64,000 bases of DNA from Sphingomonas sp. (GTDB taxonomy: Bacteria > Pseudomonadota > Alphaproteobacteria > Sphingomonadales > Sphingomonadaceae). The stretch's first letter is position 1, and every line of letters starts with the position of its first letter. Both the position numbers and the translations under genes were made by a program. Below the pieces are notes generated by a model. The model was not told the origin of the DNA, ran no database searches, and worked only from the letters and a program-made list of their open reading frames with translations. Location: the NCBI GenBank assembly GCA_013001055.1, contig JABDNH010000003.1:186001-250000 (forward strand), read 5' to 3'. This document shows, piece after piece, positions 10,513-48,260 of the stretch.

Positions 10513-11250
10513 ATGGATGTGATCCTGCTTGAACGCGTCGAAAAGCTTGGCACCATCGGTGACGTTGTCACCGTGAAGAACGGTTATGCCCGTAACTTCC
10601 TGCTGCCCAACAAGAAGGCCCTGCGCGCCAACAAGGCGAACAAGGAAATCTTCGAAGCCAATCGCGAGCGTCTCGAAAAAGAAAACGCCGAAAAGCGCTC
10701 GGGCGCCGAGGCCGAAGGCAAAAAGATGGACGGCACCACGCTGGTCCTCATCCGCCAGGCCTCGAACACCGGCCAGTTGTACGGCTCGGTGTCGACCCGC
10801 GACATGGTCACCAGCATGAAGGAAGAAGGCTTCGACATCGAACGCAGCCAGGTCCAGCTGGTCCGCCCGATCAAGACCATCGGCATGCATGACGTGAATG
10901 TCGTGCTGCACCCCGAGGTCACCATCGTGGTCAAGGCTAACGTGGCCCGTTCGCCTGAAGAAGCCGAACTGCAGGCGCAGGGCGTCGACATCATCCAGCA
11001 GATGCTGGAAGATGAAGAAGAAGCGATCAAGGAAGCTGCCGAAGATGCAGCGCCGACGCTTGAGCCCGGCCAGGTCATCAACGAAGATGGCGAAGTCGAG
11101 CCTGCCGATGGTCCGGCTGTCGAGTCCGTGGAAGTTGTCGAAGCCGGCGCCGAAGCCGGTGACGAAGCTGGTGACGAAGCCGTTGCCGATGCAGCTCCCG
11201 AAGTGGAGGCTTCCGACGAGGAGGCCAAGAAGTCCGGCGAGGAAGAGTAA
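10513..11250 (+). CDS. rplI: 50S ribosomal protein bL9 with a long acidic C-terminal tail
   Basis: A large-subunit protein that binds near the L1 stalk. The N-terminal half is canonical: MDVILLERVEKLGTIGD and KNGYARNFLLPNKKA. The connecting helix and the C-terminal domain (LYGSVSTRDM, VVLHPEVT) end near residue 155. The remaining 90 or so residues are an acidic, low-complexity Ala/Glu/Asp/Gly tail ending EEAKKSGEEE. E. coli L9 is about 149 aa, so 245 aa is long; alphaproteobacterial L9 often carries shorter acidic extensions. The tail is likely disordered. A terminator follows. Confidence 0.95.
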   Translation: MDVILLERVEKLGTIGDVVTVKNGYARNFLLPNKKALRANKANKEIFEANRERLEKENAEKRSGAEAEGKKMDGTTLVLIRQASNTGQLYGSVSTRDMVTSMKEEGFDIERSQVQLVRPIKTIGMHDVNVVLHPEVTIVVKANVARSPEEAELQAQGVDIIQQMLEDEEEAIKEAAEDAAPTLEPGQVINEDGEVEPADGPAVESVEVVEAGAEAGDEAGDEAVADAAPEVEASDEEAKKSGEEE

Positions 11251-44913: not shown

Positions 44914-45186
44914 ATGTTCAAGAAATTTGCCACTGCGGCTGCAGCGCTGTCGCTGGTTGCCAGCACGAGCATCGCCAGCGCCGAAACGCGCCCGGCTGCC
45001 GCCGTTCCGGTTGTCGCCGCAAGCAGCGGCGCCGGCGCTTCGAACGCGATGCTGTATGATGACGATGACGGGTTTGAAGCCATCTATATCATCATCGGCG
45101 CCGTCATTATCGTGGCAGCTATCGCGTTCCTGATCGAGCAGGGTCTCGATGACGAAGATGACGATCTGCCGGTCAGCCTCGGCTAA
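44914..45186 (+). CDS. Small exported single-span protein (90 aa)
   Basis: It has a signal peptide (KFATAAAALSLVASTSIASAE), an Ala/Pro/Val-rich linker, an acidic DDDDGFE patch, one hydrophobic helix (AIYIIIGAVIIVAAIAFLI) and an acidic tail (DDEDDDLPVSLG). Such short proteins occur widely in sphingomonads without assigned function. A good SD (GGGAG) lies before the ATG and a strong terminator follows, so it is probably expressed as a single gene. Confidence 0.7.
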   Translation: MFKKFATAAAALSLVASTSIASAETRPAAAVPVVAASSGAGASNAMLYDDDDGFEAIYIIIGAVIIVAAIAFLIEQGLDDEDDDLPVSLG

Positions 45187-45270: not shown

Positions 45271-45625
45271 AGTGGAGGGTTTCTGTTGCCCGGTACCCTC
45301 CGAACCGCTGGAATCCCCTTCTGTTGCCCGGTGGGGTCCGACCGCGCTTAAGACTTTGTAACTTTCGCCGTTAGGCTAATCGTTACGCAGCAATAGCGAG
45401 CGCCTCGTTATCGTTGGCACTTGTGAATATGAGCCGTCACGGTGGTCTCATACCGATCGGCAACCGAGCCTTTATTACACGCGTCGATCCTGTTTCACCC
45501 CCATCAGCAACCGCGTAAAACTGCGGTATTCGCGGCTGGTGGTGGAGGTGCCGGGGTACTGCCCCCCGGGTCCGCAATGCCTATTCCACTCGATCATCTA
45601 CCGACATAGCTGGCAAGCCAGCGAG
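45271..45625 (-). ncRNA. ssrA: Transfer-messenger RNA, circularly permuted (two-piece) gene
   Basis: Read on the minus strand, the acceptor piece comes first. It ends CACCTCC-A-CCA at 45550-45540, with a T-arm-like CCGGGG-GGCAGTA-CCCCGG just before. A short spacer follows, then the coding piece starting GGGGGTGAAACAGGATCGAC at 45502. GGGGGTG and CACCTCC pair as a full 7-bp acceptor stem, so the two parts form one tRNA-like end. The tag frame GCC AAC GAT AAC GAG ... GCG TAA (45418-45383) encodes ANDNEALAIAA, a normal proteolysis tag. Acceptor-before-coding order is the permuted arrangement known from alphaproteobacteria. The RNA rescues stalled ribosomes. The outer ends are estimates: promoter-derived on the left of transcription, hairpin-derived on the right. 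Confidence 0.92.
45383..45418 (-). other. tmRNA tag-peptide reading frame (ANDNEALAIAA)
   Basis: Twelve codons, GCC through the stop TAA, encode ANDNEALAIAA. With the alanine carried by the tmRNA this gives a tag beginning A-ANDN and ending in two alanines, as recognised by ClpXP-type proteases. Confidence 0.9.
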
Positions 45626-45634
45626 ACCAAGATA

Positions 45635-45661
45635 AGCACTATATGGTTGACAAACAACCAT
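45635..45661 (-). promoter_or_regulatory. Candidate ssrA promoter overlapping a 7-bp inverted repeat
   Basis: On the minus strand TTGTTT (45658-45653) is followed after 17 nt by TATCTT, placing the start near 45625, just before the acceptor piece. The same stretch contains ATGGTTG-acaaa-CAACCAT (45643-45661). On the plus strand TTGACA (45648) could serve the lipoprotein gene. All assignments are by consensus only. Confidence 0.4.
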
Positions 45662-45746: not shown

Positions 45747-45959
45747 TTGCGTGACGGGCGCAAAAGGTTGGTACTTCTCGCGGCGCCGTTGGCGCTGCTT
45801 TCGCTGTTGGCTTGCGGTGGAGACGCCGAAGGCACGTTGGCGGAGGGCGAGTATGATCCGGATGCGCCCAGCCTCGAGGAGGTCAGCAGTGATGCTGAGC
45901 TCGCCAATACAAATGACTCCATCGAGGAGCCCGTGGCCAATTCAGAGGTCGCGGAATAA
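45747..45959 (+). CDS. Small acidic lipoprotein, array member 1 (70 aa)
   Basis: Probably starts at TTG 45747, with AGGAAG upstream. The sequence RKRLVLLAAPLALLSLLACG is a lipoprotein signal with Cys near residue 23. What remains is about 47 residues, very acidic (GEYDPDAPSLEEVSSDAELA) and ending EEPVANSEVAE, too short and polar for a folded domain. It heads a run of four similar genes. Function unknown. Confidence 0.55.
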   Translation: MRDGRKRLVLLAAPLALLSLLACGGDAEGTLAEGEYDPDAPSLEEVSSDAELANTNDSIEEPVANSEVAE

Positions 45960-46011
45960 GGGCCCGCAAGAGGTCCGCATGTTCCAAAAATTCGAAGAAG
46001 GGGATTTTATT

Positions 46012-46260
46012 ATGAAGAAAGTTGTATTCGCCGTAGTCGGTGCCACCGCTCTTGGCCTTGCTGCCTGCAATCCGTCGGAAGACGCTGCTGGCGACGCCGT
46101 AGCCGAAGAAGCCGAAGCCCAGGAAGAAATTCTGGAAGAAGCTGCTGAAGGCGCAGAAGCAATGGGTGACGAAGCCACTGCCGAAGCGCTCGAAGAGCAG
46201 GCCGAACAGGTCGACGAAGCCGGTGAAGTTGCTGAAGAAGTCGCCGAAGGCGATATGTAA
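46012..46260 (+). CDS. Small acidic lipoprotein, array member 2 (82 aa)
   Basis: A lipoprotein with signal KKVVFAVVGATALGLAACN. The mature part is nearly all Ala, Glu, Asp and Gly (AEEAEAQEEILEEAAEGAEAMGDE) and likely helical, ending EGDM. The ATG at 46012 follows GAAGGGGATT; the track shows this frame only as part of a longer ORF from 45751. Signal peptide and tail resemble members 3 and 4. Confidence 0.7.
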   Translation: MKKVVFAVVGATALGLAACNPSEDAAGDAVAEEAEAQEEILEEAAEGAEAMGDEATAEALEEQAEQVDEAGEVAEEVAEGDM

Positions 46261-46290
46261 TTCAATAATTCGTTGAATAGGAAAATTATC

Positions 46291-46527
46291 ATGAAGAAGA
46301 CTGTTTTCGCAATTGCCGGCGTTGCCGCCCTGGGCATGGCTGCCTGCTCGAACACCGAAGATGCTGCCAGCGACGTCGATGAGGCGATGGAAGCCGACGC
46401 CGAAGCGATGGACGACGAGATCGAAGCTGCTGGCGATGAGCTTGAAGCCGATACCGAGGCGACCGTTGAAGAAGCTGGTGACGAAGCTGCCGAAGCCGGT
46501 GCCGAAATCGAAGAAGCGACCGAATAG
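46291..46527 (+). CDS. Small acidic lipoprotein, array member 3 (78 aa)
   Basis: A lipoprotein with signal KKTVFAIAGVAALGMAACS. The mature part (EDAASDVDEAMEADAEAMDDE, EAGDEAAEAGAEIEEATE) is Ala/Glu/Asp-rich with periodic acidic residues. ATG 46291 follows AGGAAAATTATC. It begins 30 bp after member 2 ends and is almost certainly on the same transcript. Closest to member 2 in sequence. Confidence 0.7.
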   Translation: MKKTVFAIAGVAALGMAACSNTEDAASDVDEAMEADAEAMDDEIEAAGDELEADTEATVEEAGDEAAEAGAEIEEATE

Positions 46528-46558
46528 TCGCTTTCTCGACCGATAAGGATTTGTTCAG

Positions 46559-46813
46559 ATGAAAAAACTGACCTTTGCGATGATGGGTGGCGTTGCGCTG
46601 ACGATTGCTGCCTGTTCCGGCACCGAAGAAGCGGCTGAAGAAGCCATGGAAAACGATGTCGGAGCGGAAGAAATTCTCGACAACGCCATCGAGGCTTCGA
46701 ACGAGGTCCTCGAAGAAGTGGTCGAGGAAGCAGAGCCGACGGCTCCGCCGCCCATTGCCGAAGAGGATCTTACGGTCGAGGATCAGGGCACCGAAGACGT
46801 TCCTGGCATGTAA
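46559..46813 (+). CDS. Small acidic lipoprotein, array member 4 (84 aa)
   Basis: A lipoprotein with signal KKLTFAMMGGVALTIAACS. The mature part is acidic (EEAAEEAMENDVGAEEILDNAIEASNEVLEE) with a Pro-rich hinge (PTAPPPIAEEDL) and ends EDVPGM. The hinge distinguishes it from members 2 and 3. It is last in the array and followed by a terminator, so members 1-4 look like one transcription unit. Confidence 0.7.
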   Translation: MKKLTFAMMGGVALTIAACSGTEEAAEEAMENDVGAEEILDNAIEASNEVLEEVVEEAEPTAPPPIAEEDLTVEDQGTEDVPGM

Positions 46814-46832
46814 GCCGCGCGTCTTTCGGACC

Positions 46833-46868
46833 AAAAAGAGGGGTCGGGCATTGTCCGGCCCCTTTTTT
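46833..46868 (+). terminator. Rho-independent terminator after the small lipoprotein array
   Basis: GGGGTCGG and CCGGCCCC form the stem, preceded by AAAAAG and followed by TTTTTT. The stem is the same as in the terminator at 8584. Confidence 0.85.
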
Positions 46869-46897
46869 GTCGCCGAGATGAGCGCTAGGCCCGGTCC

Positions 46898-47530
46898 ATG
46901 GATGACGCCAAACCTGCTGCCACGCTGATCGTCCTGCGCGATGCACCGAGCGGCCCACCTGAAATGCTGATGGTACGCCGCGATCGCGCCATGGCATTTG
47001 CGGCAGGTGCCTGGGTATGGCCTGGCGGACGCGTCGATCCGGAAGACCGTCTGGCCGCATTGGATGATCTCCACGCCGCGCAGATCGCTGCGGTTCGTGA
47101 AGCCACCGAAGAAGTTGCCATGCCGGCGCTCGATCCCAAGAGCCTCGTCCCCTTCGCCCGCTGGCTCCCCAAGTTCAACGTCGAGCGACGTTTCGACACC
47201 TGGTTCTTCCTGGCGCGCGCGCCGCGAGTCGACTGGACGCTCGATCTTCAGGACGGCGAGATTATCGATGCAATGTGGACTAGCGCACAGGCCATGCTGG
47301 ATCGGATTGCCTGCGGCGACGCCAGCGCCATCTTTCCCACGGTGCGCAACCTCGAGCGGCTTGCAGGGTTCGCGTCCATCGATGAAGCCTTCGCCGATGC
47401 CGCCGCGCACCCGACCGACCCCATCACCCCGTGGATCGAGACGCGAAACGGGGTAGATCATATCGTGATTCCCGAAGGGATGGGCTACCCGGTTACCGCA
47501 GAACCGCTGACCACCGCCACGCGTGCCTGA
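46898..47530 (+). CDS. Nudix hydrolase (NUDT19-like)
   Basis: A 210-aa Nudix hydrolase. The Nudix region is WPGGRVDPED...AAVREATEEVAM, in which the box is spread by an insertion between the glycine and the REA..EE part, as in eukaryotic NUDT19/NUDT7-type CoA diphosphatases. The N-terminus PAATLIVLRDAPSGPPEMLMVRRDRAMAFAAGAWVWPGG is typical of that subgroup. It may hydrolyse CoA or acyl-CoA esters; this is family-level inference. Its end overlaps the extensin-like gene start. Confidence 0.8.
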   Translation: MDDAKPAATLIVLRDAPSGPPEMLMVRRDRAMAFAAGAWVWPGGRVDPEDRLAALDDLHAAQIAAVREATEEVAMPALDPKSLVPFARWLPKFNVERRFDTWFFLARAPRVDWTLDLQDGEIIDAMWTSAQAMLDRIACGDASAIFPTVRNLERLAGFASIDEAFADAAAHPTDPITPWIETRNGVDHIVIPEGMGYPVTAEPLTTATRA

Positions 47531-48260
47531 TCGCTTCCCCTGGAAAGGCTTGCTTATCCTCGCCTTGCTGGCGGCCGTGGCCATCGTCGGGTGGCGCGAA
47601 TATCAGCGATTGTTGCGCGAAGAGCCGCAACTCTTTCCTTGGACCCCGCTCGATCTGAACGATCCGGTTGGCAGTTTTACCGATGACAAGCTTGCCGCGC
47701 TGACAACGGATGCCCCGCGCTGCCGCGCGCTGCTCGAGGCGGCGGGAACTGGCGATGTACCGGCCCCAGCGATGGCGGCCGACACACCACAATGCGGCTA
47801 TCAAGACGGTATCCGCCTCGGTGCCGGCGACGGGTCTCGGCTGGACTATGGTGTTTCAATCACCGCCTGTCCCGTGGCCGCAGCACTCGCCCTGTGGGAG
47901 CGCGATATCCTCCAGCCTGCCGCAGCCCGTCATCTGGGATCCGCTGTCGTGCGCGTGCGCACGCTCGGCAGCTACAGTTGTCGACGCCTATATGGCCGTG
48001 CCGACGGCGCATGGAGTGAGCACGCCACCGCGAATGCCATCGACATATCGGGCTTTGATCTGGCCGATGGGCGCACCCTGACGCTGTCCGGCAACTGGGA
48101 CGGAACGCCTGGAGAAGCCGCCTTCCTGCGAGAGGTGCGCGATGGCGCCTGCACGCTTTTCCGCACGACCCTGTCACCCGATTACAACGCCGCGCACGCC
48201 GACCATCTTCATTTTGACATGGCCTCGGGACGCCCAGCGGGGTGGTCGATTTGCCGTTAG
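47523..48260 (+). CDS. Extensin-like C-terminal domain protein
   Basis: A membrane-anchored protein of 245 aa. One N-terminal hydrophobic helix (GLLILALLAAVAIVGW) is followed by the extensin-like domain: CGYQDGIRL, SITACPVAAALALWERDILQPAA, LGSYSCRRLYG, WSEHATANAIDISGF, HADHLHFDM. The HxxxxAxDxxGF and HxDHxHxD patterns make it a probable zinc peptidase of the D-alanyl-D-alanine type, acting on peptidoglycan. The GTG at 47523 overlaps the Nudix stop by 8 bp, suggesting coupling. Confidence 0.82.
   Translation: MPDRFPWKGLLILALLAAVAIVGWREYQRLLREEPQLFPWTPLDLNDPVGSFTDDKLAALTTDAPRCRALLEAAGTGDVPAPAMAADTPQCGYQDGIRLGAGDGSRLDYGVSITACPVAAALALWERDILQPAAARHLGSAVVRVRTLGSYSCRRLYGRADGAWSEHATANAIDISGFDLADGRTLTLSGNWDGTPGEAAFLREVRDGACTLFRTTLSPDYNAAHADHLHFDMASGRPAGWSICR

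Follow-up and report, generated by a model that had tools for sequence, protein, structure and literature searches.

The four small tandem genes at positions 45747-46813 of the window, as we call the whole 64,000-nucleotide stretch of Sphingomonas sp. DNA that was analysed, are best read as copies of one ancestral lipoprotein gene, located between ssrA and a gene for a NUDIX hydrolase, that multiplied in this lineage. We tentatively favour the view that the encoded proteins (P1-P4) could be abundant structural or polyanionic lipoproteins anchored in the outer membrane, which would have been amplified and acidified once in Sphingomicrobium. This reading of the sequences is drawn from the fixed address of the genes, their expansion in a single clade, the homology of P1, P2 and P4 to proteins of relatives, a conserved C-terminal motif, low synonymous divergence and codon usage. 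It draws further on the acidic tails, a predicted hairpin in P2, the lack of any enzyme match, the lack of Asp at position +2 and the lack of an Lpp over cut-off in 31 genus-level genomes.

Gene organization

Based on the open reading frames of the window, which belongs to a genome of 2.08 Mb, the four genes lie in tandem on the plus strand with the following neighbours.

45292 to 45661, minus strand: ssrA, two-piece alphaproteobacterial tmRNA with tag ANDNEALAIAA, left neighbour
45747 to 45959, plus strand: P1, 70-aa lipoprotein, TTG start, lipobox LLAC, YDxxAPSLEEVxSDAE stretch
46012 to 46260, plus strand: P2, 82-aa acidic lipoprotein, lipobox LAAC, predicted two-helix hairpin
46291 to 46527, plus strand: P3, 78-aa acidic lipoprotein from ATG, lipobox MAAC, family signal peptide
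46559 to 46813, plus strand: P4, 84-aa acidic lipoprotein, lipobox IAAC, Pro-rich part, C-terminal motif EDVPGM
46834 to 46868, plus strand: intrinsic terminator after P4, 16-pair stem-loop ending in T6
46898 to 47530, plus strand: NUDIX hydrolase (PF00293, 1.5e-9), conserved right neighbour by synteny
47523 to 48260, plus strand: extensin-like_C protein (PF06904, 2.8e-55), next gene in most relatives

A sequence-only reading of this region had described four tandem genes of 70-84 codons forming one transcription unit by spacing. The genes were confirmed: the lengths fall in this range (P3 reaches 84 aa from an alternative TTG start at 46273), the gaps P1-P2, P2-P3 and P3-P4 are 52, 30 and 31 nt, and a terminator follows P4. 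The terminator was found by folding, with an energy of -42.2 kcal/mol (z -5.9) for the 76 nt at 46810-46885, and was missed by the terminator part of a sigma-70 scan of the window, which gave no useful promoter for the array. Because of this strong terminator the transcription unit probably ends between P4 and the NUDIX gene, and co-transcription of the array with the latter is unlikely. On the other side, ssrA was matched by Rfam RF01849 at 45310-45661 (216.9 bits) and placed by ARAGORN at 45292-45636. No functional link between the array and its tmRNA neighbour was found beyond their common position, and ssrA is probably not part of the mechanism of the array.

Two further acidic products were observed in the window. 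A 90-aa ORF at 44914-45186, to which no family was assigned and which has 94% identity in the nearest genome (G034), combines a signal peptide with a DDDD run, a single hydrophobic segment and an acidic C-terminal end, and an rplI-like (L9) gene at 10513-11250 carries a long acidic Ala/Glu-rich C-terminal extension.

Lipoprotein signals and acidic tails

All four N-termini have positive residues, a hydrophobic stretch and a lipobox ending in Cys, in agreement with the lipoprotein signal claimed earlier for each; the lipoboxes LLAC, LAAC, MAAC and IAAC were recognised by eye and with a regular expression. The KKxxFAxxGxxAL layout ascribed to members 2-4 was also seen in P2-P4. The mature tails contain 31-43% Asp+Glu and zero Lys or Arg, so that of the Ala/Glu/Asp-rich character described for them the acidic part applies to all four and the Ala-rich part does not extend to P1. 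None of the sequences has Asp at +2, and by the E. coli Lol rule a residue other than Asp at this position allows sorting to the outer membrane; outer membrane sorting of P1-P4 is thus allowed by this rule. The proteins would be secreted, cleaved and lipidated at the Cys, and the lipidated forms would probably be sorted to the outer membrane.

An acidic coat of surface-exposed lipoproteins outside the cell would be compatible with the acidic residues found soon after the Cys, as Bacteroidetes lipoproteins are sent to the surface by a negatively charged signal that follows the Cys (PMC5080379). That export signal is, however, known from Bacteroidetes, requires its own pathway and usually has Lys or Gln-Ala before the acidic residues, and we regard such a coat as quite improbable.

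Conservation of the locus and expansion in a single clade

In 47 genus-level genomes with the NUDIX gene on a usable contig, we took out the stretch to the left of this gene. The usual order was ssrA (minus strand), lipoprotein gene or genes (plus strand) and NUDIX (plus strand), with the extensin-like gene next in most, and P1-P4 occupy this family address between ssrA and NUDIX. In a few loci ssrA was unreported by ARAGORN; the tag ANDNEALAIAA was nevertheless visible in G005. A single lipoprotein gene was present in 37 of the 47 genomes and two to four in the other 10, all of which form one clade on the NUDIX tree (bootstrap 100, SH-aLRT 97, one change). In this specific sense the tandem duplication is uncommon, as the sequence-only reading had supposed. 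Because the lipoproteins expanded a single time, a link of the expansion with acidity or habitat counts as one evolutionary event.

Among named species, the NUDIX neighbour gene points to Sphingomicrobium lutaoense and S. astaxanthinifaciens as relatives. Judged by their names, the named species of the expanded clade seem to be coastal or marine. Several related former Sphingomonas have been transferred to Pseudosphingomonas (PMC12210278), and for this reason the lipoprotein expansion may be a mark of Sphingomicrobium strictly defined.

Across the order, a family profile found matches at E<=1e-6 in 134 genomes out of 301, representing 32 genera; part of these matches may rest on the signal peptide and composition. 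By this profile the family of P2 appears to be Sphingomonadaceae-wide rather than a peculiarity of this locus. Checks of loci in other genera did not reveal the NUDIX neighbour, the plasmids searched with a single-copy member gave no match, and a literature search on an ssrA-NUDIX lipoprotein family found nothing.

Some unusual loci were also observed. In G023 the ssrA-lipoprotein-NUDIX locus occurs twice on contig C1, near 2.156 and 2.170 Mb (L105, L116), about 13.9 kb apart and with identical lipoproteins, and this duplication may be genuine or may come from the assembly. In G150 the usual ssrA-adjacent lipoprotein has a second one nearby (L150, 3051-3314), whose tail repeats ADNxxDNxxA, and no NUDIX gene was found there. 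G159, which belongs to a different genus, shows another arrangement, with a family lipoprotein no more than about 1 kb away from a tmRNA gene (L168).

Relatedness of the members

With sequences of such biased composition, tail homology is difficult to assess. Inside the array, alignment gave weak similarity (P2-P3, z 2.0; P3-P4, z 3.1) and none between P1 and the others, whereas through relatives it was clear for P1, P2 and P4. P2 scored 29.9 bits against a profile built from 29 single-copy genes (0 of 300 shuffles) and z 12-16 against its counterparts in G005, G012, G018 and G201. P1 and P4 both had G268.2 as the best of 61 partners, with z 7.1 and 7.2, respectively, and 0/3000 shuffles each; P1 matched it via the YDxxAPSLEEVxSDAE stretch, and P4 along its length, Pro-rich part and C-terminus included. 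From these matches P1 and P4 may be diverged descendants of one ancestor. The P3 tail gave no signal beyond composition against the single-copy profile (119/300 shuffles). The tandem duplication proposed by the earlier reading is hence upheld for P1, P2 and P4 by their same-address homologues in relatives and not for the tail of P3; likewise similarity by composition alone, which had been named as counter-evidence, describes the P3 tail and not the other three. Chance composition as a full account was ruled out for P1, P2 and P4, P3 excepted, by the shuffles and the matches to relatives. Recent duplication was rejected too, as the tails of the array are weakly alike yet P2 strongly matches its counterparts in other species. 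A helical-period test was significant for segments of P3 and P4 and not for P1, and no conclusion rests on it.

Relative to the nearest genome, G034, protein identities were 89% (P1), 100% (P2), 96% (P3) and 93% (P4), with dN/dS of 0.27, 0, 0.07 and 0.12, respectively. This purifying selection indicates that P1-P4 are genes and not composition artefacts. It also bears on the idea that they are mostly convergent low-complexity lipoproteins, gathered by chance or drift and with little shared function. The P1 tail, unlike the others in the window, and the P3 tail, with no family match beyond composition, would fit that idea; the shared address and signal peptide layout, the strong matches found in relatives for P1, P2 and P4 and the selection on all four speak against it, and we consider it very improbable.

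Paralogues in the own genome were sought by profile and DNA search. Upstream of an rplJ-like (L10) gene on contig C18, near 126.5 kb (L039, 1501-1734 and 1754-2011), two more small acidic lipoproteins stand in tandem with 19 nt between them. A lone acidic lipoprotein on contig C9 near 51 kb (L002, 1406-1660) was also found by the family profile, and its DNA matches part of P2 (84% over 49 bases).

Inferred expression

Synonymous divergence (dS) of P1-P4 from G034 was 0.23-0.27, compared to a median of 0.50 for conserved ORFs of the window, among which some spurious overlapping ORFs are counted. Values were 0.74 and 0.70 for the next two genes downstream of the array and 0.17 and 0.23 for rpsF and rpsR, so that the array diverges as little at synonymous sites as ribosomal protein genes do. 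The codon usage of P2-P4 is that of highly expressed genes, with GAA, GCT, GTT and GGT raised and GTG, GCG and GGG lowered; that of P1 is ordinary. Taken together, low dS and codon usage suggest high expression of at least P2-P4. DNA- or RNA-level constraints offer another explanation of the low dS.

The C-terminal motif

In each of the 47 genomes, one member and no more ends in [VI]x[GA][ML]. In the window it is P4 (EDVPGM), the only such member of the array, and in all expanded loci but one (G018, third of four) the motif bearer is the last gene. The pattern was drawn up after viewing the sequences, and the chance of 0.0015 per protein is only a guide; much of the repetition in 47 of 47 genomes is explained by shared descent. 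Among the sequence features the once-per-genome motif is the strongest sign that one copy may have kept an ancestral role while the others changed: P4 would keep the ancestral C-terminal motif, and the other copies would have lost it.

The main rival to a structural role starts from this motif. The motif-bearing member could dock onto an envelope partner (a beta-barrel, protease or stress sensor), with the extra copies modulating it in a regulatory fashion. Small alphaproteobacterial lipoproteins with partner functions have precedent: LppA of S. meliloti works with the protease JspA (PMC10659215), and DalA of R. sphaeroides is a small lipoprotein at the divisome (PMC10470522). Both are precedents by function alone and are set beside P1-P4 by description. 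However, a partner gene is absent at the locus, and a structural role better suits the high-expression signature and the simple acidic tails seen in P2 and P3, which leaves docking unlikely, though to be taken seriously.

Structure and comparison with known lipoproteins

An AlphaFold2 model of P2, built from seven sequences, predicted a two-helix hairpin (residues 23-50 and 54-78), with block mean pLDDT >90 over residues 31-70 and pTM 0.57; the model of P4 was poor (mean pLDDT 59). A Foldseek search of the P2 model against the PDB gave nothing at E<=0.001. A metal-binding enzyme fold was rejected, as all matches, including rubrerythrin and Dps helices, had E>1 and were of a kind that any helical hairpin yields. 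Sequence search against solved structures was without significant result. No Pfam or NCBIfam model was over cut-off for the proteins scanned singly, members of the alignment gave weak matches only, and no enzyme family or fold match came from Pfam, NCBIfam or the Foldseek search with P2. For the metal binding and surface-layer roles suggested by the sequence-only reading, no specific evidence was found for either.

The array resembles Lpp/OprI (NF040598, PF04728) in being small, Ala-rich, helical, lipid-anchored and probably abundant, and helical tails that bind the outer membrane to peptidoglycan, or link the two, as Lpp-like tethers have to be weighed. No Lpp over the Pfam cut-off was present in 31 genus-level genomes, and genes for the extensin-like protein and an S66 peptidase are nearby. 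Such a tether was proposed for an abundant lipoprotein of Methylacidiphilum (WP_009060351, 139 aa, Verrucomicrobiota), as an outer membrane-peptidoglycan link (PMC10260701); this protein, small, highly expressed and lineage-restricted, is set beside the array by description and is a precedent only. The similarity to the Lpp/OprI alanine-zipper model is weak, with 11.6-15.6 bits for P2-P4 and 27.6 at best in a relative, every score being under the 43-bit cut-off. Unlike Lpp/OprI, the array is strongly acidic and present in tandem copies, P2 is predicted to form a hairpin instead of one long helix, and the tails are without Lys and therefore incapable of an Lpp-type C-terminal Lys linkage. A tethering role of this type is in our opinion rather unlikely.

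A likeness was also seen to PG1828 (NF050142), a short lipoprotein of similar character, with 28.5 (P2), 21.9 (P3) and 18.9 bits (P4), the P2 match being mostly to the signal peptide and first tail residues. These scores are under the 50-bit cut-off, and by that test the proteins do not belong to the same family. Very small tandem lipoproteins are also the layout of entericidin (PF08085) loci, in which the products act as toxin and antidote. P1-P4, however, had no match to PF08085 at E<=1, and they have longer tails of much higher acidity. A pair of entericidin-family matches over cut-off, about 270 bases apart, lies elsewhere in this genome, on contig C18 at 114365 and 114636 (L171, L172), and an entericidin-like role for the array is extremely unlikely.

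Tail acidity and proposed role

The mean Asp+Glu content of the mature tails was 37% in the expanded clade (seven expanded genomes) compared to 22% in single-copy species. The cytosolic NUDIX protein was unshifted (14.8 vs 14.4%) and the extensin-like protein slightly up (13.2 vs 11.4%), and acidification is accordingly mostly specific to the lipoproteins; given the slight shift of this periplasmic neighbour, part of the trend may be general. In composition, the acidified tails of the expanded clade would fit an envelope-charge role.

In the structural or polyanionic role that we favour, abundant short helical polyanionic tails would form a structural or charge layer at the envelope, acting by spacing, hydration or cation holding and without a catalytic role. 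The more acidic tails of the expanded clade would possibly be an adaptation to salt. A bolder version, which we think doubtful, is that of an undescribed Sphingomonadaceae outer membrane family doing the structural job of Lpp without its chemistry, which in Sphingomicrobium would have split, as a salt adaptation, into hairpin-only polyanionic copies and one C-terminal docking copy.

The array is less interesting than first stated in being a familiar type of small lipoprotein, and more interesting in its single-clade expansion, conserved address and once-per-genome motif. A family that no Pfam or NCBIfam model covers, that keeps to one address, seems to be strongly expressed and expanded a single time offers an easy way in for genetics, and all four members fall within about 1.1 kb and are removable by one deletion. 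With no Lpp over the Pfam cut-off in 31 genomes of the genus, how such envelopes are held and charged is the question on which the array bears.
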